Counted from the stretch's first letter, positions 30,532 through 41,134 are shown. The stretch: DNA of 64,000 nt from Paraglaciecola polaris LMG 21857 (GCF_000315055.1 NZ_BAER01000138.1:1-64000), one strand, 5' to 3'. The notes: a model not told the origin generated them from the sequence alone. Program-made: numbers and translations.

Positions 30532-30981
30532 TTAGTCACCTAAACGAGCGATCTCTTCGCCAAACTCACGGATATCTTCAAAGGAACGGTACACAGAGGC
30601 AAAGCGCACATAAGCGACTTTATCTAACTCTTTGAGCGCATCCATTATCAAGTTACCGAGAAACTCACTGGTGATCTCACGCTCACCCGTGGCACGCATG
30701 GACGATTTGAGGCGGCTAATGCATTGCTCTACTTGTTCAGTACTCACGGGGCGCTTTTCCAGGGCGCGCTGCAAACCCGCACGCAACTTGTCTTCGTTGA
30801 AGGGTTCGCGAGAACCATCACGCTTGACCACACGGGGCATGACTAACTCGGCCATTTCGAAAGTCGTGAAGCGCTCTTTACACATAGTACATTCGCGACG
30901 ACGACGCACTTGATGCCCGTCAGCGACTAAGCGAGAGTCAATCACCTTGGTTTCTTGGATAGAACAGAAGGGACAAAACAT
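30532..30981 (-). CDS. nrdR: Transcriptional repressor NrdR
   Basis: ATP/dATP-sensing repressor of ribonucleotide reductase genes. The N-terminal zinc ribbon has C-P-F-C and C-T-M-C pairs (residues 3-6 and about 31-34). The ATP-cone domain follows from about residue 49 with [11 protein letters not shown]. Length 149 residues, as usual. In many proteobacteria nrdR lies next to glyA; here an 8.5-kb accessory block separates them. Confidence 0.97.
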
Positions 30982-31108: not shown

Positions 31109-31849
31109 TTAAATAACCCGCATTCCAACTTGATTACTCACGATACAATTGGCCCCCATTTTTTTCAAAATTTTACAGCTTTCCTTAGCTTGCTGCTGCG
31201 TATCATAAAAACCTGCTTTGATGCGATAAAAAGTCACACCGGATAAATCAACCTCTTGATAGATAGCGTGTAAATCATCGAGTTCTGGCGCGTAAGATGA
31301 TTGTAGTGTACGCCAAGATTCAGCTAATTTATTTTTATCCGTCACGGCTGTAAGCTGCAATGTGTATTGGCCATTTCTCGATACGTTTTCTATTATCTTC
31401 TCATTTAGCGGCGAAGTATGCTTATTAGCCGTCTCACTAACGTTAACATTTGCACGCGGTGTGTTTTGTACGGTGTTTAATGTTAGCTGCTCAACCGCCA
31501 CGTCCTTAGCTTTAAGTTTGCTCTGGCTTTTCTTAACAGGTGGTCTATTCGATTCAGATGCAACTAAAGCTGCACTTTGCGTCTCTTGAATTTCTGCCGC
31601 TTCAGCAATTTGCGTTAGTTGTGAAATAAGGGCTTTTAACTCTGGTTCGAGTGCGGCAAGTCGCTGCAAGCTTGGTTTCATCTGTTCAAACTCCGCCATT
31701 TTTGCGTGAAACTCTTCTGCGCTTAGTCCATTTGGTACCTCTGCGACATTAGAGTTCGTAGTCGTCGCGCACCCACCTAGCAATAATATGCTAACCGTGC
31801 CTAACAATAGGCTTTTCATATTTAAACAAGCTAACTTAATTATTTTCAT
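31109..31849 (-). CDS. SPOR-domain lipoprotein
   Basis: Predicted lipoprotein of 246 residues. The signal peptide ends L-L-G-G-C (Cys27). Next comes a helical segment (about 45-90) containing E-F-E-Q-M-K-P-S-L-Q-R-L-x3-E-x2-L-x2-L-I-x2-L, then a low-complexity linker. The C-terminal ~85 residues resemble a SPOR peptidoglycan-binding domain (strand Y-T-L-Q-L, later Y-R-I-K-A-G-F-Y) with a C-x9-C pair. The helical segment is closely matched in the FlgO protein at 37236-38303. It is the last gene of the chaperone-usher block, 22 bases after the usher. ATG 31819 is an alternative start, but the longer form has AGAGA upstream. Role inferred: peptidoglycan anchoring or positioning of the pilus machinery. 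Confidence 0.75.
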   Translation of the reverse strand: MKIIKLACLNMKSLLLGTVSILLLGGCATTTNSNVAEVPNGLSAEEFHAKMAEFEQMKPSLQRLAALEPELKALISQLTQIAEAAEIQETQSAALVASESNRPPVKKSQSKLKAKDVAVEQLTLNTVQNTPRANVNVSETANKHTSPLNEKIIENVSRNGQYTLQLTAVTDKNKLAESWRTLQSSYAPELDDLHAIYQEVDLSGVTFYRIKAGFYDTQQQAKESCKILKKMGANCIVSNQVGMRVI

Positions 31850-31870
31850 TTTCTATGTCTCTTCAAAGTC

Positions 31871-34800
31871 TTAAATATCAAAGGTAAAAGGCGCAACATT
31901 GCATGATATATTTTTGGCAGAAAAACGAGCACACACCGCATTGGCGTGGGCTTGTTTAGGATAAAAGGCAACGTTTAGTGTGTATTTTTTATCACCGTCA
32001 GCTTTGTAATAAAAAGGCTTAGGGTCAACAACATACACACCTTTTTTGATCAGTATCTGCCAAAATGCTTTCAGTATTTTGAGTGAATTAAACTCACCAA
32101 TAGACACCACATAACCCTCAGCGGCCTCTCGTTCTTGCAGGGTGAAATCGGCACCATTCACAATTTCACCCGCGCTGGCCAAACTGACTTCGACGGCTTT
32201 ACCCGCTCGTAAATTCTTTTTATCTAAATAGCTGCCTTCAATACGCATTTTATATTTATCGGGCAATAAGTCGGTGAATAAATAGTACCCATCGAATTGA
32301 GTCACGGTACTATTGACTTCATTGCCCTTACTATCGTACAAACGAATGGGTGCATAGGTTGCGACTTCTTCACCACCACTGGCATTGCTAACGTAAACAA
32401 CGCCTTCTAACTCGCCAGATTGCACCACAGGAAAGTCGAGCACATCGAGATGTCCGGCTCTGGGGGTAACGGATACGCCTGGAATGGCATTAATTAGGAA
32501 TGGATCCTCTAGGCTTCGCCTATCTAACACGATATCGGTTCGCACGTTGTTAGTCATGCTGCTGAGCATGGCGACACCTGTTTCATCAGTGGTGCCATGT
32601 CGATAATTTTGCAGTGCCTTTATTTTCGCGTTCTTGATTAACGGCTCGTCGGTATCAAACTGACCGTTTAAGTTTAAATCTTCAAATACCCTCACCGCCA
32701 TCGCTCCGCTATTAGCCATCGACCGACGATTCATAAAGAATTGCTCGCCGAGCGGGTCGTAACCAAAACTAAAGCGCATGTTCAAACCGATCGACCAATC
32801 GCCGTCTTTGTCATATTCAGTGTCGGCAGTGAAATAAAACAAGTCGTGCTGCCAATTCAAGCCTAGTTTTGCGCGGTAATCATCAAGCTGCGGGTAGTAA
32901 ATAATTTCAAGCTGGCTCTGCAACTCAGTGGTCAATGGCATGTATAGTTCAGTGCTGACTTGCTCTAATTGTGATTCTGGTTTAATTGAATAAATTGCAT
33001 TTAAGCGCGTGAAAACCCGGCCAAAACTCTTTTGTAAACGAAGCGTCCCGCTAAATAGCTCTTCGGAAAATTCATCATCGGTTTTAAGCCAGTTCAATTC
33101 ATGAGATACAAAGAGCAAGCGACTATTAATCGACAACTGATTAGAGAATAAATCACTGCTTAAACCATCTTCAATCGTGGTGTGCCGCCATTCATTTTGA
33201 TAATTCACCCCAAAACCACTCGCTTTGTACAACTCACCTGACATATTCAGCGCGAACTGTTGATATAACTGGGTATCATCTGAGCTAGTTTGCTCATTCT
33301 CTTGTTGATCACCAACAAACGAAACGCTACGTTCGTCCATGTAATAATCGGCATTTAACGCTGTATCGCCGATGCGAGTTCGAGCGCCAAATTCTGCTCG
33401 GGTTTGTTGATCTTGATTAATTTGCACTATGCCGTCAAGCAACACACGATCAAACAGCGCCAGATTTGAGCCTAAAGAAAAATACTGCTGATCATCACCT
33501 TCATCTGCCAATAGCGAAGAAACACCCGCGCTCAATGAAAACCAATCGGTAATTCCTCGGTTATATACCCCAGACAACAACACTCCTGGATCTTGCGCTG
33601 TGCTGACAGTAGAAATACCAAATAAAGATTCTCCGACATCAGCGACTGAAAAACGATATTGCCCCTCGCCTTGTTCTACCGAGTTAGTGGTAATGAAATA
33701 TTGCTCAGTTTTGCTTTCAATTTGCCCTTGGGGACCGTACATGATGAGTTCGAATTGGTTATCACCGAATACTAAGTCTATGTCGTTAAACTCGTAACGG
33801 CCACTTTGCAGGCTCATTTGCTGGTCGATTAATATCCCGTTGCGGTATAGCTCAATATCCCAGCCCAACTGAATATCACCGGTAAGGTTAATCGTTTTGT
33901 TATCATTAATTTGTGCGAGCTTACGATTGGTCACACTGAAGCCACGACTTTGAGAGGCGGTATTGCCGATACCCACGTTTACAGGGGTGATATCGCCAAA
34001 CTGGATCTGCGTGGCTTTAAGCGGCCCAAGTAAATCGCTATTAAGGGATTGTTTAGATAACGTCAGACGTACATCACTCAATTCATCTCTATCGTTACCT
34101 GCGACAAAAAATTGACTGTTTAAGTAGGCGAAATCATGACTACCTAAAACAGAGTAGCGCGCGCTGTCACGATCAGGGTCGATTGTGCTAGCTAGCTGCA
34201 CATCTATCAAGGGAGCTGTTATCGCTTGGTAATTTGACTCCAGCATAGGCAAAACGGCTTCACCTCGACTTGAGCCTTGGCTGACTCTACGGTTTTGACG
34301 CGCTAAACGTTGCTCAATGGGTAACGAGGTATCAGAGTGGGTGTACAGCTCTAAGTTGGCAAAATCAAACTCAAAGTCTAATCCCATCCACTCGCTTATT
34401 GCACCCGCCTCAACGTAGATATCACCGTCTTCAGTTAAGGTATAATCTTGACTTTCAAGCTTATAGTTTTGCCCATCTACCGTGACCAAAATAGGTTCAT
34501 CTTGAACTGAAGGTAATCGTAAATCAAAGGCGTGGTCTTCACTAATAAACCAACCTGAAGCACCGCCGTTATTTTTTGCACTCTCTTTTGGCTCTACAAA
34601 TTGAATGGCAAAATCGAGAGTTTCGAATAACGTCATCAGACTGATGCGCGCTTGCTTGGTGCTTTTAATGGCGTACACGTCCGCCAAATAAAGCTTACCG
34701 ATATTTAACGACAAAAAGAGTTCTTCGCCTGGGGCAAAGCGAGAAGACACAGCGCTTTTGTCGACAGTATTGCGAGCAGAGGTAACTATTGGCTGTTGAT

Positions 34801-34954
34801 ATTTTTGATTCACGTCTTTGAGCAAAGCAATCAGCTCTTTATTCGACAAAGCCGAAGATAAATTAGCCTTAGTATTTGCAAAGGTTGTTTGGCTCAATAG
34901 CGTAATGATTACAAATATATATAAAACGCTGACAGCAGGGAAAATACGTGACAT
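31871..34954 (-). CDS. Usher-like outer membrane protein with C-terminal SPOR-like domain
   Basis: Protein of 1027 residues with a signal peptide (about 1-26). The N-terminal ~200 residues are a periplasmic domain. Residues about 235-730 show alternating strands of a large beta-barrel, with the usher-like stretch L-Y-R-N-G-x-L-I-D-Q around 380 before G-R-Y-E-F-N-D-I. Near 755-775 is a calcium-binding style D-L-N-L-N-G-Q-F-D-T-D-E-P loop typical of SdrD/carboxypeptidase-regulatory domains, and a second such domain lies near 850-935. The last ~80 residues resemble a SPOR domain with the same C-x9-C spacing as the next gene's product. It presumably secretes the DUF4402 subunits. Ushers normally end in small plug-like periplasmic domains, so this tail is unusual. 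Confidence 0.75.
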   Translation of the reverse strand: MSRIFPAVSVLYIFVIITLLSQTTFANTKANLSSALSNKELIALLKDVNQKYQQPIVTSARNTVDKSAVSSRFAPGEELFLSLNIGKLYLADVYAIKSTKQARISLMTLFETLDFAIQFVEPKESAKNNGGASGWFISEDHAFDLRLPSVQDEPILVTVDGQNYKLESQDYTLTEDGDIYVEAGAISEWMGLDFEFDFANLELYTHSDTSLPIEQRLARQNRRVSQGSSRGEAVLPMLESNYQAITAPLIDVQLASTIDPDRDSARYSVLGSHDFAYLNSQFFVAGNDRDELSDVRLTLSKQSLNSDLLGPLKATQIQFGDITPVNVGIGNTASQSRGFSVTNRKLAQINDNKTINLTGDIQLGWDIELYRNGILIDQQMSLQSGRYEFNDIDLVFGDNQFELIMYGPQGQIESKTEQYFITTNSVEQGEGQYRFSVADVGESLFGISTVSTAQDPGVLLSGVYNRGITDWFSLSAGVSSLLADEGDDQQYFSLGSNLALFDRVLLDGIVQINQDQQTRAEFGARTRIGDTALNADYYMDERSVSFVGDQQENEQTSSDDTQLYQQFALNMSGELYKASGFGVNYQNEWRHTTIEDGLSSDLFSNQLSINSRLLFVSHELNWLKTDDEFSEELFSGTLRLQKSFGRVFTRLNAIYSIKPESQLEQVSTELYMPLTTELQSQLEIIYYPQLDDYRAKLGLNWQHDLFYFTADTEYDKDGDWSIGLNMRFSFGYDPLGEQFFMNRRSMANSGAMAVRVFEDLNLNGQFDTDEPLIKNAKIKALQNYRHGTTDETGVAMLSSMTNNVRTDIVLDRRSLEDPFLINAIPGVSVTPRAGHLDVLDFPVVQSGELEGVVYVSNASGGEEVATYAPIRLYDSKGNEVNSTVTQFDGYYLFTDLLPDKYKMRIEGSYLDKKNLRAGKAVEVSLASAGEIVNGADFTLQEREAAEGYVVSIGEFNSLKILKAFWQILIKKGVYVVDPKPFYYKADGDKKYTLNVAFYPKQAHANAVCARFSAKNISCNVAPFTFDI

Positions 34955-35045
34955 AAAGATCCATTTCTAATTGACAGCAAATAGATAGCAAACAACGCGC
35001 CAAGTTATTCGTCGGATAATTGACATCACTCCACCTAGGAAAGCG

Positions 35046-35873
35046 CTACCTAATACTAGGTGTTATTTTAAAAGACTTAGTTGTGAGCACTCGTCCCTTA
35101 TATCTTCCTTGCCCCTCATACACAATTGATAACACGCCACGAGTTGGCTCAAATGGAGCACCGACCCAAATTAAATTAGCAACTGCTTTTTCTAGCTCAG
35201 TATAAACACTGTAGCCACTTAGCCGTGCCACTACTATTGGCTCATCAGCGCTCCCATGAGGTAACCAATAGGCTGTAATATCGCCATAAGAAGAGTAGCT
35301 CCCACTCCTATTAAAGTTGACCGAAATAGTACCTTTTGCACTCTGGGGATCGAACATGAATTTTACCGATTCAGCATTTATTTCAAGGTCGTTTTCTCCC
35401 TGACGAACAACTACTGGCAGTGAATAACTCATGCGCAGTTTTAAGTCTATTGCGAAGCCCGTTTGCTTTGAAATTTTTTCTTCTTGGGAAGGCAATGACC
35501 GTAATGTTAAATGTGAGCGATATTCGCCAGCAGCTAAACCTTTAGGTTTTCTTAAGGCTAGCTTCACAACCTGTCGCTCATTAGGCTGCAAAGTGACTTG
35601 CCGCGGACTATAACGCAGCATATTGCTTGCCACTGGAAAACCACTCTCGTCTTGTACTGCTTCGTAACCACCGTGCGAAAGCGCTCGCTTTTGCTGCCAC
35701 TCCATACGATAAGTTTGAACACTATTACTCGTGTTGACTAATACAATTTCCTTTGAGCGTTCTCTTAAATCGAATGAGACATAGGTTGGCGATACAAGTA
35801 AATTTGCATTAACAACAGTAGAGGTAATAAACAATAAAAACGTTAACACATGAGCAAAGAACCTGATTTTCAT
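35046..35873 (-). CDS. PapD-like periplasmic pilus chaperone
   Basis: Chaperone of 275 residues that should bind pilin subunits in the periplasm by donor-strand complementation and deliver them to the usher. After the signal peptide (about 1-23, ending V-N-A-N) comes the first Ig domain with L-L-V-S-P-T-Y-V-S-F, V-Q-T-Y-R-M-E-W and R-Y-S-P-R-Q-V-T-L-Q-P-N-E-R-Q-V-V-K-L, the conserved G1-strand/Arg region. The second Ig domain follows from about residue 150. The start has AAGGAAGG just upstream. It lies between the subunit genes and the usher, in the usual order. The sequence looks closer to archaic or alternate chaperones than to FimC/PapD, a tentative judgement. Confidence 0.85.
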   Translation of the reverse strand: MKIRFFAHVLTFLLFITSTVVNANLLVSPTYVSFDLRERSKEIVLVNTSNSVQTYRMEWQQKRALSHGGYEAVQDESGFPVASNMLRYSPRQVTLQPNERQVVKLALRKPKGLAAGEYRSHLTLRSLPSQEEKISKQTGFAIDLKLRMSYSLPVVVRQGENDLEINAESVKFMFDPQSAKGTISVNFNRSGSYSSYGDITAYWLPHGSADEPIVVARLSGYSVYTELEKAVANLIWVGAPFEPTRGVLSIVYEGQGRYKGRVLTTKSFKITPSIR

Positions 35874-35902
35874 TAACCTTCCTTAATAAAGATAAATTGA
35901 GT

Positions 35903-36403
35903 TTAATAATTGATAGTGAAGCGAATATCGAAAATGAAATCGGTATCTAAATAGCTTTGGCCTGTACCAGAAGACTCTATAGTTCCCCCTAAGGTTAAAC
36001 TTGCCTCACCAGCACTATCGGTTGTAATCGAGGCTGGTATATCTAAATCTATCAAAATAAATTCAGCTGAAATGCCTGATTGTACCTGACCTGTTACCGG
36101 CGTAATTGCGCTAAGATATAAAGTTGTATAAGGAGGGTAATTGAAAAATCTAACTGAAGCAGGTTCACCAGTAGTTATTATTCGAAGAGAGTTAGATGAA
36201 AACGCCTGACCATGCCGAGTTACCGTTAGGGTACTAACATCCGCATTATTGACAATGGAAAATTTACCAAAATCGAGATTTTCTTCGAATATTATTTCAG
36301 ACAAGGCACATCGCTGGAATAAGATCAGCAACGTGCCAAGTTTTAAAGCTGTACGAATAGTATTTAAAAAAAACTGACTGCAACAAACGCTTAGATTATC
36401 CAT
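35903..36403 (-). CDS. DUF4402-like minor pilin subunit
   Basis: Secreted protein of about 166 residues with a long signal sequence (hydrophobic L-G-T-L-L-I-L-F, cleavage probably after A-L-S). The body has the DUF4402 pattern: L-D-F-G-K-F near the start of the mature part, a middle region of short strands with G-E-A-S-L-T-L-G-G, and a terminal D-I-R-F-T-I-N-Y beta-strand. It follows the larger DUF4402 gene after about 20 bases, so it may be a tip or adaptor subunit. TTG 36412 is in frame and has GAG upstream; ATG 36403 is chosen but the start is uncertain. Confidence 0.7.
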   Translation of the reverse strand: MDNLSVCCSQFFLNTIRTALKLGTLLILFQRCALSEIIFEENLDFGKFSIVNNADVSTLTVTRHGQAFSSNSLRIITTGEPASVRFFNYPPYTTLYLSAITPVTGQVQSGISAEFILIDLDIPASITTDSAGEASLTLGGTIESSGTGQSYLDTDFIFDIRFTINY

Positions 36404-36424
36404 AACAGTCAATTCAAACTCAGT

Positions 36425-37024
36425 TTAATACGCAACGACTATGTCGTAATTACCACTGTAAATCGCGTCAATGTATGCGGTAGTACTAGCTGTATCATCG
36501 GTATTTAATGTGGCACCAACGGCAAACGTAACTTCACCAGCCGCATCAGTTTGCAAGTTCGCTGCAGCATAGACAGTATTAGCATTTGGTCCGGTTAATA
36601 TATAACCAGTCCAGGTATCTGCTATTAGTTTAGGCGCAGAAGGAGGAGCCGATGCTCCAGTCAAGTTAACATCAGTAGTAGGTACCGTTAGTGTTAGACT
36701 AGTAAAAGGGGCAACACCGGATACAGCGTATTCACCAGGAGTACCCGGCACCAAAATCTGCATAACAGCAGCCGCGCCACCAGAAGCTGGTGTAGACGGG
36801 TCAATTGTTGGGTTAGCAGGAATAATCATAGTTGCTTGCACTGTCCCAGCAGGGTCAGCCGTGGCCCTTACAGTGCCAAATGAAATGGCAGCTGTTTCGT
36901 CTAGCGTAAACGCATTTTGAACAGTTGCCGTTGCTACAGAAGACGCAGTTTCTTGAGCCTGAGCCGCACTAACCAATAAAAGTGATGCTGCTAATCCAGT
37001 GGCTATTTTGTTAATTTTTGTCAT
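36425..37024 (-). CDS. DUF4402 major pilin-like subunit
   Basis: Secreted protein of 199 residues with a clean signal peptide (about 1-23, V-S-A-A-Q-A-Q). The mature part is the DUF4402 domain: T-A-T-V-Q-N-A-F-T-L-D-E-T-A-A-I-S-F-G-T-V-R-A at its start, G-E-V-T-F-A-V-G near the end, and the closing Y-S-G-N-Y-D-I-V-V-A-Y strand. It is poor in charged residues and rich in Ala, Thr, Pro and Val, as expected of a polymerising subunit. It is the first gene after the FlgO genes, has a good GGGAA upstream and a 200-base A/T-rich leader region, so it probably has its own promoter. Function as structural pilin is inferred. Confidence 0.83.
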   Translation of the reverse strand: MTKINKIATGLAASLLLVSAAQAQETASSVATATVQNAFTLDETAAISFGTVRATADPAGTVQATMIIPANPTIDPSTPASGGAAAVMQILVPGTPGEYAVSGVAPFTSLTLTVPTTDVNLTGASAPPSAPKLIADTWTGYILTGPNANTVYAAANLQTDAAGEVTFAVGATLNTDDTASTTAYIDAIYSGNYDIVVAY

Positions 37025-37235
37025 TGTGGTTCCCTAATTTTTTATAAACATAAAGTCATATCGCCAAAATAAACACAGTTGTTTACTGAGGGCTAATTCT
37101 TTTATCGGTGTATTGCGTATTTTATTGAGCTATTTATGCAACTTTTTGTTAAAAAATGCGAAAAAAGTTAATTTTAGGGAAATTAAATTGCTTGTAAATT
37201 AATCAATTAAACGAAAACATGTCAGTAACGAGTGA

Positions 37236-38303
37236 TTAAGGCTGGATCTGTTGCAAAAGGCCTTTAGGCACAAAAGTACTGGCTGCGGCGATCACGCTGT
37301 TATCATCAATTGATACCACTCGACTATTGATTTTCACCCCTCTATTGGTCGCGACTAATGTGCCGGTCAGGATGTAATCCATTTCAGTTTGTCCTTGCAG
37401 TTTTTGGCCATCTCGCGAGAGTGCTAAATCTCCCATAGCGGACACGTCTATGTGTTTAGTTAGCTTAAAGTCCACCACATTAACCCCGTACTGAGGTAAT
37501 TCAGTGGCCAAGGCTTCGGCAAACTGATTACCTAAACTGCTGGAGCTACGCAACGTCTCGTCAAAATCGACAAAACTAGCCACGCCTACTCGCACGCCTT
37601 CTAGTGCACTGAATTTCGCTAACTTTCCAGCTAATTGCTGAGCATAATCGGTAAGCTGAATTTTACTGTTCGCAAAAATGCCGCTATTGCGACTAACATA
37701 ATGTGAGGACGCAACCGAGCGTGCTTCAGCATTCATTACGCTATCTTCCCCTTGCAATCCTGAAACATTATTTAACTTGCTGTAGCGCACCGTTCTGGCG
37801 AGTTTCTGTAGTTCATTCATCAAATACTTAAGTTCTTCAGGAGATTCGGTTAATGATGCTAATGGGTTTATAGATTGAATTTGATTGTCCGCATTACTTT
37901 TCGTGTTGCCACCAGTTGAAGCTGGCATATTTTGCTTATTGTCTCCCATCAAAATGCCTTCGGGCTGATTTTCGGCATACTGCGGTTGACCTTGCATATA
38001 CTGCTCTAACGACGGCGACGTGCCAATAACTGATAGATTACTTAACGCATCAATCAAGAATGCTAAATCCTCTTCACTCTTAACTAGCCTTTCGAGCGCT
38101 GGCTTTTGTGTTTCCCATTCAATTTTTTGTTGTTCGAGCATGCTTTTTAATTCAATGTATTGCGGATCACTGGTATCCACTGCAATTTCGTCTTGATCTT
38201 TAAACATCGAACAACCTGCGAGCGTAACTAAAACGATTGCGAGACTGCAGTGCATCAACACACTGCGAGGTAAAAAAGTGAAACACAGATTATATTTATT
38301 CAC
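37236..38303 (-). CDS. FlgO-domain lipoprotein with N-terminal helical module
   Basis: Largest of three FlgO-family proteins in a row. The lipobox is V-T-L-A-G-C. A helical segment after it contains E-W-E-T-Q-K-P-A-L-E-R-L-x3-E-x2-L-x2-L-I-x2-L, strongly similar to the SPOR lipoprotein at 31109. The C-terminal ~140 residues are the FlgO domain (V-G-V-A-S-F-V-D-F, L-G-N-Q-F-A-E-A-L, D-Y-I-L-T-G-T-L). In Vibrio, FlgO is an outer-membrane lipoprotein of the flagellar base. Here the setting is a pilus cluster. Start is uncertain: GTG 38312 and ATG 38255 are also in frame. GTG 38303 gives a Lys/Arg-containing signal peptide and has GAG about eight bases upstream. Confidence 0.78.
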   Translation of the reverse strand: MNKYNLCFTFLPRSVLMHCSLAIVLVTLAGCSMFKDQDEIAVDTSDPQYIELKSMLEQQKIEWETQKPALERLVKSEEDLAFLIDALSNLSVIGTSPSLEQYMQGQPQYAENQPEGILMGDNKQNMPASTGGNTKSNADNQIQSINPLASLTESPEELKYLMNELQKLARTVRYSKLNNVSGLQGEDSVMNAEARSVASSHYVSRNSGIFANSKIQLTDYAQQLAGKLAKFSALEGVRVGVASFVDFDETLRSSSSLGNQFAEALATELPQYGVNVVDFKLTKHIDVSAMGDLALSRDGQKLQGQTEMDYILTGTLVATNRGVKINSRVVSIDDNSVIAAASTFVPKGLLQQIQP

Positions 38304-38358
38304 TATAAACACTCAACTATCTGATTAATTGCCATAATATCCATCGTCCAATCTCGTC

Positions 38359-39027
38359 TTAGCTTTTTTCACTTTGCTTGAATTTAAGACTGATACCGGA
38401 ATTACCCTGGCTACCGTGCAACGCGTTTACTACACTGGCAGGAATAAAGCCTTGGGCACTTGATAGTACTTTTTTAGTATCAATAGACACCATACGAGCA
38501 TTCACTATTACACCATCTTGGTGCTTAACCATAGTACCGCCCATGACATACTGTACTGGCATATCAGGGTTTAGCTCTTCGTAATCACGACTGAAGTTGA
38601 AATCGCCTGATGGGGTAACGCGAATGTAATCTGAGCTTTTGAAGTCCAAAACATTTAGCCCAAACTGATGTAGTTCATGCATGAAGCTTTCAGCCAACTG
38701 ATTGCCTAATAAGTCCGTTTCGTCAAAATTACCATCTAGGTAAACGAAACTAGTGACACCGATATCCATACTGTTATCGGGTGTGTCCATATTGGCAATT
38801 AACTCTTGCATTATCCCCTGTACATAGTGATTTACGTCACCCACTTCCACACGCTTGTAAATGTCAGACATGCGCTGGTTATTAAAGCGACTGCCTTGAG
38901 GCATGTTCAGTTCAACTGGACTATTAGCGGATTTATCTTCCACGTCCTCATCATTTGAGAAAAAACTTGAACAAGACGTGCTGAATAAACAAATTAGCGG
39001 CACAGCGAAAAGGTTTGTAGTTTTCAT
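38359..39027 (-). CDS. FlgO-domain lipoprotein
   Basis: Second FlgO-family protein, about 222 residues from ATG 39027, which is preceded by AGTGAG; GTG 39039 is a further in-frame start. The signal peptide ends F-S-T-S-C, an imperfect lipobox. The FlgO domain occupies most of the mature chain: I-G-V-T-S-F-V-Y-L-D, L-L-G-N-Q-L-A-E-S-F, V-L-D-F-K-S-S-D-Y-I-R-V and Y-V-M-G-G-T-M-V. It is very similar in plan to its two neighbours, which implies tandem duplication followed by divergence. Confidence 0.78.
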   Translation of the reverse strand: MKTTNLFAVPLICLFSTSCSSFFSNDEDVEDKSANSPVELNMPQGSRFNNQRMSDIYKRVEVGDVNHYVQGIMQELIANMDTPDNSMDIGVTSFVYLDGNFDETDLLGNQLAESFMHELHQFGLNVLDFKSSDYIRVTPSGDFNFSRDYEELNPDMPVQYVMGGTMVKHQDGVIVNARMVSIDTKKVLSSAQGFIPASVVNALHGSQGNSGISLKFKQSEKS

Positions 39028-39042
39028 GATTAAACTCACTTT

Positions 39043-39627
39043 TTATAATGACGAGCGATAAAGCTTGTTATGCTTTATTTGGATTTGATTGGCGTTCAAT
39101 CCAATAACGCTATTCGGAATATTATCTGACACCGCAGCGATAACGGTTCCCTCGCGCAAATCCAATAACCGGGCATTAACCGTAGTCGTTTGATTGCCTT
39201 GCAGTAGAGTTCCCACGACCATATAACGCACATTAATGTCTTTACTGATGTCGGCACTATCACGACTGAGTAATCGCTCGTGATCCTTAAACAATTGCAC
39301 CTGATTAGCTGCGCGTATCTCCACTACGTTAAAACCTCGCTGTGTCGATACAGTTAACATACTCTCTTGTAACTGCAGGCCAAGCATATTCAAAGAATGA
39401 TTAGCTTGAGACAGTGCTAGGCTTTCTAGTTCAGTAAAACTCACCACCGCCAAATTCCCGTATTCAATAGGCGGCAAGTTACCGAACAGCCTATTTGCGA
39501 CTTGCTCTGTGTGCATTAATAAAGGCTCTTCGGCCACAACCTGCCCTACTTCGGCATCTTCTTGCCATGAAGGTAGATGGGAACACCCCATTAAAGAAAG
39601 TAACAATAGGCTTAATAAGATCTTCAA
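39043..39627 (-). CDS. FlgO-domain lipoprotein
   Basis: First gene of the FlgO trio, 194 residues from TTG 39627. That start has GGAG eight bases upstream and yields a normal lipoprotein signal peptide ending L-L-S-L-M-G-C. A GTG at 39654 is in frame but would add nine residues before the signal sequence and has no ribosome site. The FlgO domain shows V-V-S-F-T-E-L-E-S-L, N-V-V-E-I-R and Y-M-V-V-G-T-L-L-Q-G. It lies about 130 bases downstream of the glyA terminator. The three proteins could form a mixed ring or scaffold in the outer membrane. Confidence 0.78.
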   Translation of the reverse strand: MKILLSLLLLSLMGCSHLPSWQEDAEVGQVVAEEPLLMHTEQVANRLFGNLPPIEYGNLAVVSFTELESLALSQANHSLNMLGLQLQESMLTVSTQRGFNVVEIRAANQVQLFKDHERLLSRDSADISKDINVRYMVVGTLLQGNQTTTVNARLLDLREGTVIAAVSDNIPNSVIGLNANQIQIKHNKLYRSSL

Positions 39628-39757
39628 AACATCTGCTCCGCTTTCGGTGCCCACTGAGGTTAGGCATACGCATTGAATACGCTAATTTTTGGTCAAAGCG
39701 TCAAAAAACGGCGCTTAAACTGTTCATACTAACGGTTTCAGCAAATTTCAGGCCATA

Positions 39758-39877: not shown

Positions 39878-41134
39878 TTAGCCGTAAACGGGGAACTCAC
39901 CGCAAAGGGCCAGTACTTCACCTTTTATGCGTTCGATGACTGATTCGTCTTCGATGTTGTCGATAACATCACAAATCCAAGTCGCCACTTGCTTCGCTTG
40001 GGCTTCTTTGAAACCACGGCGGGTGATGGCCGGAGAACCGATACGTAAACCACTGGTCACAAACGGAGAGCGTGGGTCGTTTGGTACTGAGTTTTTGTTT
40101 ACTGTGATGTTTGCGCGGCCTAGGGCTGCATCCGCATCTTTACCTGTGATGTCTTTCGCAATCAAATCAAGTAAGAACAAATGATTGTCAGTGCCACCAG
40201 ATACTATGTTGTAACCGCGTTCTTGCATCACGCTAACCATTGCCTTGGCGTTAACTAAGACTTGCTGTTGGTATTCTTTAAAATCTGGTTGTAGTGCTTC
40301 TTTAAAGGCAACGGCTTTAGCCGCGATCACGTGGCACAAAGGACCCCCTTGATTACCAGGGAATACTGAGCTGTTGAGCTTTTTATAGATAGCTTCATCA
40401 CCACAGGCTGATAAAATCAAGCCACCACGTGGGCCCGCTAAGGTTTTATGGGTTGTGGTAGTGACAACGTGTGCGTGCGGTAACGGGTTAGGATACAACC
40501 CTGCTGCGACTAAGCCCGCTACGTGAGCCATATCCACTAACAAGTATGCACCTACTTTGTCCGCAATTTCGCGGAAACGCTGCCAATCGACAATGCCTGA
40601 GTATGCAGAAAAGCCACCGATGATCATTTTCGGTTTGTGTTCAACCGCTAGTGCTTCCACTACGTCGTAATCAATTTTGCCGGTTTGCTCATCGATACCG
40701 TACTGTACTGCATTATAGGTTTTACCAGAGAAGCTAACGTGGGCCCCGTGGGTCAAGTGACCACCGTGCGCTAAGCTCATGCCTAGTACGGTATCACCAG
40801 CTTCAAGTAACGCCATAAATACCGCTGAGTTAGCTTGAGAGCCAGAATGAGGTTGTACGTTTGCGTAGTCACAACCGAATAATTGATTTGCCCGAGCAAT
40901 GGCTAGATCTTCTGCCACGTCTACGTATTCACAGCCGCCGTAATAGCGTTTGTGTGGGTAACCTTCAGCGTATTTATTGGTTAACTGTGAACCTTGGGCT
41001 TCAAGCACCCGGGGACTACAGTAGTTTTCAGAGGCGATCAGCTCAATGTGATCTTCTTGGCGCTGGGTTTCTTGCGCGATAGCTTGACTCAATTCGGGAT
41101 CAAAATCGGCAATATTCATGTCACGTGATAACAT
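39878..41134 (-). CDS. glyA: Serine hydroxymethyltransferase
   Basis: Pyridoxal-phosphate enzyme interconverting serine and glycine with tetrahydrofolate; main source of one-carbon units. The 418-residue protein has [15 protein letters not shown]-x-x-R-Y-Y-G-G-C and the PLP-lysine motif [14 protein letters not shown]. It is transcribed alone. An in-frame ATG five codons later (M-N-I-A-D) is an alternative start. Confidence 0.98.

Follow-up and report, generated by a model that had tools for sequence, protein, structure and literature searches.

Eight adjacent genes in Paraglaciecola polaris LMG 21857 raise the question of how the parts of a chaperone-usher pilus come to be encoded together with FlgO proteins, relatives of a flagellar ring component, and with SPOR-domain proteins, and what kind of transcription such a block is under. 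The genes occupy the minus strand at 31109-39654 of a 64,000-nucleotide stretch (GCF_000315055.1 NZ_BAER01000138.1:1-64000, hereafter the window), are flanked by glyA (39878-41134) and nrdR (30532-30981), and follow the order flgO3, flgO2, flgO1, pilA, pilB, chaperone, usher, SPOR lipoprotein. The answer we favor, with a probability of about 0.72, is that they encode a chaperone-usher pilus forming part of the flagellar regulon in marine gammaproteobacteria with polar flagella, which would be assembled by the mechanism proposed below. The features of the block are as follows.

39740..39755, minus strand: sigma54-type (-24/-12) promoter TGGCCTGAAATTTGCT, 5′ of flgO3, from a window scan with TGGC-N7-TTGCW; at the same position in five Paraglaciecola genomes
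39043..39654, minus strand: FlgO3 lipoprotein, lipobox LMGC; PF17680 E 1.5e-29; a separate clade in the FlgO tree
38359..39039, minus strand: FlgO2, with a signal peptide and a poor lipobox match (STSC); PF17680 E 1.2e-45
37236..38312, minus strand: FlgO1 lipoprotein, lipobox LAGC, with a long N-terminal extension; PF17680 E 4.6e-38
37102..37128, minus strand: FliA/sigma28-type promoter TCAA-N15-ACCGATAA, 5′ of pilA, 2 of 12 mismatches; kept in four Paraglaciecola
36425..37024, minus strand: PilA, DUF4402-type pilin with a free N-terminal extension; DUF4402 E 4e-4
35903..36412, minus strand: PilB, second pilin-like subunit, by iterated-profile homology to PilA and alignment
35046..35873, minus strand: PapD-like periplasmic chaperone; PapD_N in homologues; adjoins the usher in most loci
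34987..35002, minus strand: sigma54-type promoter TGGCGCGTTGTTTGCT, 5′ of the usher in the chaperone-usher gap, 1 mismatch
31871..34954, minus strand: usher of FimD/PapC fold with C-terminal SdrD_B-like (869-906) and SPOR-like (945-1020) domains, from Pfam
31109..31849, minus strand: SPOR lipoprotein, lipobox LGGC; PF05036 E 5e-6

All eight co-directional genes of the initial annotation were thus recovered, including the SPOR lipoprotein and three FlgO proteins with strong PF17680 matches. Intergenic gaps along the block (3, 46, 211, 12, 29, 91 and 21 bases) divide it into three sub-blocks, flgO3-flgO2-flgO1, pilA-pilB-chaperone and usher-SPOR lipoprotein. Because promoter-like sites precede flgO3, pilA and the usher, a single operon of eight genes is improbable, and the block is probably not transcribed as one unit.

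The identity of the block as a chaperone-usher pilus is well supported computationally. The usher has no match to the Pfam Usher model, yet its AlphaFold model (pLDDT 82, 36 homologues) matches FimD/PapC in the PDB with E 1e-27, 11-12% identity and a TM-score of up to 0.59 (target-length normalised), and comparison of the predicted structure with these ushers accounts for the barrel, plug and C-terminal domains. The window chaperone itself scores under the curated PapD_N cut-off; among its homologues, however, PapD_N is found at E<=0.01 in 27 of 31 (best 4e-9), which identifies a PapD-like two-domain chaperone beside the usher, as had been annotated. The proposal of two DUF4402 pilins stood in part: PilA reaches only 21.5 bits against the curated cut-off of 25.2 for DUF4402 (PF14352), with 15 of 27 homologues matching at E<=0.01 (best 1.5e-10), and PilB, which has no Pfam match, is linked to PilA solely through iterated profiles. 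The PilA model (pLDDT 88) is beta-rich with an N-terminal extension and has as its best PDB match the CfaB pilin, at a weak E of 4e-3; more generally, the best PDB matches of the pilins are the chaperone-usher pilins CfaB, CS17, Caf1 and Csu, all weak. Searching the PDB by sequence alone yielded nothing usable for the usher, the chaperone or the pilin, so that structure comparison was required. The block accordingly shares with known chaperone-usher pili (FimD/PapC; CfaB class 5 and Csu archaic pilins) the usher barrel and plug fold and a PapD-like chaperone; its subunits are small and may likewise be Ig-like, the modelled one having an extension left free at the N-terminus. It differs from FimD/PapC pili in its low usher identity, its lack of a Pfam Usher match and its DUF4402-type pilins, and from described chaperone-usher pili in the SPOR tail of the usher, the SPOR and FlgO lipoproteins and the flagellar-type promoters.

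These promoters are, we think, the main point beyond the initial annotation, which also did not include the SPOR tail on the usher or an exchangeable pilin-chaperone cassette. After removal of similar upstreams, 69 non-redundant pilin upstreams and 53 FlgO-run upstreams were compared with shuffled sequences and with 608 upstreams of other genes. Sigma28-type sites with <=1 mismatch precede 27/69 pilin genes vs 14/608 controls, and with <=2 of 12 mismatches 48/69 vs 60/608; several of the 14 control matches belong to class II pilin genes or to flgM, a known target of FliA recognised here from gene size and position. In 37 of the 48 pilin sites TAAA is followed by G, at a position that the search pattern did not include. 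Sigma54-type sites with <=2 mismatches precede 43/53 FlgO runs and 25/48 SPOR genes with their own upstream, vs 73/608 controls, as well as 16 of 76 ushers where 2.7 would be expected. The two signals are separate in that pilA shows no sigma54 enrichment and FlgO no sigma28 enrichment, and generic sigma70 promoters are rarer than in shuffled sequences. We regard the enrichment of flagellar sigma54 and sigma28 consensus sites as well supported. Within the window, TNAA-N16-CCGATAA has a single match, at the pilA site (0.1 expected), and the flagellin gene of this genome has the site TAAAGAGTATGCTTCCCGAGTCGATAA. The TGGCGCGTTGTTTGCT site also occurs in the chaperone-usher gap of the other block-bearing Paraglaciecola listed. 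Glaciecola has usher-SPOR and pilA in two distinct units, with a sigma54-type site at the usher and mostly a sigma28-type one at pilA. With sigma54 at FlgO, SPOR and usher genes and sigma28 at pilins, the platform resembles middle flagellar genes and the subunits late ones, matching the sequence of flagellar construction, in which the platform precedes the subunits. The block genes may depend on RpoN and FliA. In V. fischeri the flgO promoter requires the flagellar activator FlrA (PMC3948606).

The same genes keep company across many genomes. Usher relatives occur in 80 of 247 family genomes and form two classes. All 41 class I loci have a chaperone and PilA, 40 a SPOR lipoprotein, 39 PilB and 24 FlgO within 8 kb. 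An overlapping set of 80 named loci, from Shewanella, Psychromonas, Pseudoalteromonas, Thalassomonas, Rheinheimera, Bowmanella, Alteromonas, Colwellia, Marinomonas, Ferrimonas and one Vibrio, contains a chaperone in 79, a SPOR lipoprotein in 77, PilA in 76, PilB in 74 and FlgO in 53 (FlgO and SPOR <=10 kb from the usher). The neighbourhood recurs in ~120 loci from partly overlapping sets, which excludes a chance association; the linkage of FlgO and SPOR genes to the usher, as originally proposed, holds over many genera and sites and so survives the refutation test attached to it. The flanks vary, with thyA/lgt and flgT/flgP in Pseudoalteromonas (many of whose blocks directly adjoin flgT/flgP), glyA/nrdR here and others elsewhere. 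An usher is present in 77/171 genomes with at least two FlgO genes, 2/46 with one and 1/30 with none, counts uncorrected for relatedness. Ten loci with related ushers, taken from other families in the class, served as outgroups: ushers without a SPOR tail (L271, L273, L275, L277) have neither FlgO nor, where a pilin was identified, a good sigma28 site, and L269 and L270 have the SPOR tail and no FlgO. This small sample hints that SPOR tail and flagellar-type wiring were added onto an older usher family. The class II loci (L116, L114, L081, L085, L089, L252) encode distant ushers of 1100-1200 aa, with a SPOR tail confirmed in L114. They also contain pilin-like genes, FlgO, a chaperone or two and an uncharacterised protein of 360-440 aa, and sigma28-type sites are present in some of them.

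The SPOR domain in the tail of the window usher (residues 945-1020) matches Pfam with E 8e-6, has the SPOR-type b-a-b-b-a-b element order in the predicted model and contains two cysteines, C1008 and C1018, that are invariant across 36 homologues. Since only 4 of these 36 tails match Pfam SPOR by themselves, the assignment is drawn from the window protein together with the fold prediction and the alignment. In the SPOR lipoprotein Q165, R209, C225 and C235 are invariant in 23 homologues, and Q165 and R209 are putative glycan-binding residues. The protein is predicted to share the SPOR fold with the septal proteins DamX, DedD and FtsN, with a weak profile match to DamX 2lfv (E 0.07) and a common Y-x-L-Q-L stretch, and differs from them in its lipoprotein form, its place in a pilus cluster and its fast-diverging linker.

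Between sister species, pilA, pilB and the chaperone gene are exchanged as a cassette. Genomes that correspond to P. mesophila KMM 241, P. chathamensis S18K6 and Paraglaciecola sp. 20A4 are the closest relatives of the window genome. Between the sisters P. mesophila (G213) and P. chathamensis (G055), which have 99% glyA protein identity, DNA identity is mostly 80-98% over FlgO and 83-98% over the usher vs ~50% from window ~37000 to ~34850, that is, over pilA, pilB and the chaperone. A G213-type cassette is found in G142 (96, 90, 92%) and a G055-type one in G000 (92, 77, 72%). The divergence of the cassette beside a conserved usher indicates that subunits and chaperone are swapped as one set. 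Exchange was seen at loci L035, L036 and L034. A second variable patch between the sister species is the SPOR lipoprotein linker (window 31150-31700), which is hypervariable at 47-68% DNA identity, sister species included.

We propose that RpoN (sigma54) and a flagellar activator would first direct synthesis of a platform consisting of the SPOR-tailed usher, the SPOR lipoprotein and the FlgO lipoproteins, and that FliA (sigma28) would later direct that of pilins and chaperone. Pilins would pass through the usher by donor-strand exchange, the platform would be tethered to peptidoglycan by SPOR lipoproteins, and FlgO, from the ring-forming family of the flagellar H-ring, would brace the outer membrane around the platform and/or the flagellum. 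The fibre would be built in swimming cells, probably for attachment when swimming ends. A closer coupling, in which an organelle with a platform of flagellar-ring paralogues and SPOR proteins is expressed in flagellar order and assembled at the flagellar pole of swimming cells, is a tentative extension that we consider possible rather than probable.

Several observations weigh against the favored explanation. A good sigma28 site is missing from about one third of the non-redundant pilin upstreams, one Pseudoalteromonas luteoviolacea group among them. The window's own site has two mismatches, and like patterns are found 77 times across this genome, against 45 times for the control in which the pattern is reversed. 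No FlgO gene lies near the usher in 27 of the 80 named loci. The usher's SPOR tail, unlike DamX, DedD and FtsN, has neither the Q nor the R that are invariant in the SPOR lipoprotein. Finally, G090 keeps three FlgO genes, lacks exactly the stretch from SPOR lipoprotein through usher, chaperone and pilB to pilA, and is nested among block carriers for FlgO1; we read this pattern as a loss of the pilus genes, and the persistence of FlgO indicates a role independent of the pilus.

This last point fits an account in which the triplet is a relocated and amplified flagellar flgO that acts solely in the H-ring, the pilus genes having docked at a tolerated, co-regulated spot. FlgO, FlgP and FlgT belong to the Vibrio flagellar H-ring (PMC6375700). 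Like the FlgO of that ring, the block proteins have the FlgO domain, found in all three, and a sigma54-type promoter; they differ in being three paralogues, away from flgP-flgT and joined to a pilus cluster. A quick tree gave three paralogue groups, with six flgT/flgP-linked FlgO genes as one supported group that is sister to the FlgO2 group, and FlgO2 matches the PDB FlgO chains 9yfg/9yds with E 6e-30. The gene lies <= ~1.2 kb from flgT in 30/30 single-FlgO genomes checked. The window genome has no FlgO genes other than the three in the block, none of which lies between flgP and flgT, and its flgP-flgT locus (L167), like those of four other triplet or pair genomes (5/5 fetched), is kept without flgO. 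The flgO once between flgP and flgT is lost in FlgO-triplet genomes, so block FlgO may also serve the flagellum. An exclusive H-ring role is harder to reconcile with the second FlgO pairs that sit inside the pilus cluster and form their own tree groups in Bowmanella, Lacimicrobium, Alteromonas and Aestuariibacter, beside another FlgO set. In G215, moreover, whose relatives checked have one flagellar FlgO, a class II pilus cluster comes with three FlgO genes and a SPOR lipoprotein, and flgO is retained at flgT/flgP. The association also repeats at numerous sites and in both usher classes. The duplicates and G215 point to a pilus role as well, and we doubt a purely flagellar one while counting it a real possibility. 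Of the dedicated scaffold originally suggested, the pilus-specific duplicates and this co-acquisition with flagellar flgO kept speak in favor, and the replacement of the flgP-flgT gene by the triplet speaks against.

That the fibre coats or anchors the flagellum rather than forming a free pilus, with the usher at the flagellar base or sheath and a FlgO ring common to both, would also account for the flagellar-type promoters and for the blocks abutting flgT/flgP, and the 58 chains per solved entry of FlgO relatives suggest a large ring; non-flagellar ushers function without such rings, and we consider this unlikely. More improbable still is an ordinary adhesive chaperone-usher pilus, horizontally acquired, in which case the SPOR and FlgO proteins would be generic envelope neighbours and the promoters AT-rich coincidences. 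Several genomic locations, cassette exchange and a block GC slightly below that of the flanks agree with it, but the promoter enrichment holds against both shuffles and control genes, which excludes composition as its source, SPOR is present in nearly all named loci, and the few other-family ushers without a SPOR tail also go without FlgO and a sigma28 site.

If the pilus does belong to the flagellar regulon, many marine bacteria would bear an adhesive fibre made because they swim, whereas pili and flagella are usually seen as opposed programmes of adhesion and swimming. We know of no wall anchor for ushers, which would gain a candidate ring in the outer membrane and a candidate tether to peptidoglycan; FlgO and SPOR proteins would be extended to another organelle. 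In the literature searched we found no description of such a pilus; the chaperone-usher subfamily, with its flagellar-type transcription, is real and widespread and seems to be undescribed. The earlier suggestion of a surface fibre with outer-membrane and cell-wall proteins is borne out as a gene system, from which a fibre may be expected.

The site of the block has its own history. glyA and nrdR adjoin each other in 10 of 22 genomes of the genus, in line with the adjacency first assumed. The others hold this block (4), the FlgO triplet only (1), a class II pilus with FlgO beside nrdR (2, in one of which glyA lies outside the stretch fetched), a TonB-type receptor (3), a decarboxylase cluster (1) or unresolved content (1). 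Insertion as one unit, which had also been inferred, does not hold: G090 and the two class II species indicate that FlgO triplet and pilus genes are separable. A phage origin of the block was rejected, as no PHROGs match was obtained. L063:4331-5692, L072:13980-15407 and L073:3967-5394 encode FlgO1 homologues that reach 453-475 aa and are extended at length on the N-terminal side. Immediately after the SPOR lipoprotein, L040:12114-13994 encodes an HMW1C-like glycosyltransferase, and L037-L039, L043, L063, L072 and L073 have a ~630-aa gene at the matching place, likened to it by size and position alone. The window genome gave no match to this enzyme, in a search whose controls were likewise silent, and N-glycosylation of pilins by it was rejected, the adjoining pilins having no excess of N-X-S/T sites (P 0.56). 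Within the genus, insertions recur between glyA and nrdR, with TonB-type receptors and a decarboxylase cluster at L121:2672-5857, L129:2009-4315 and L131.

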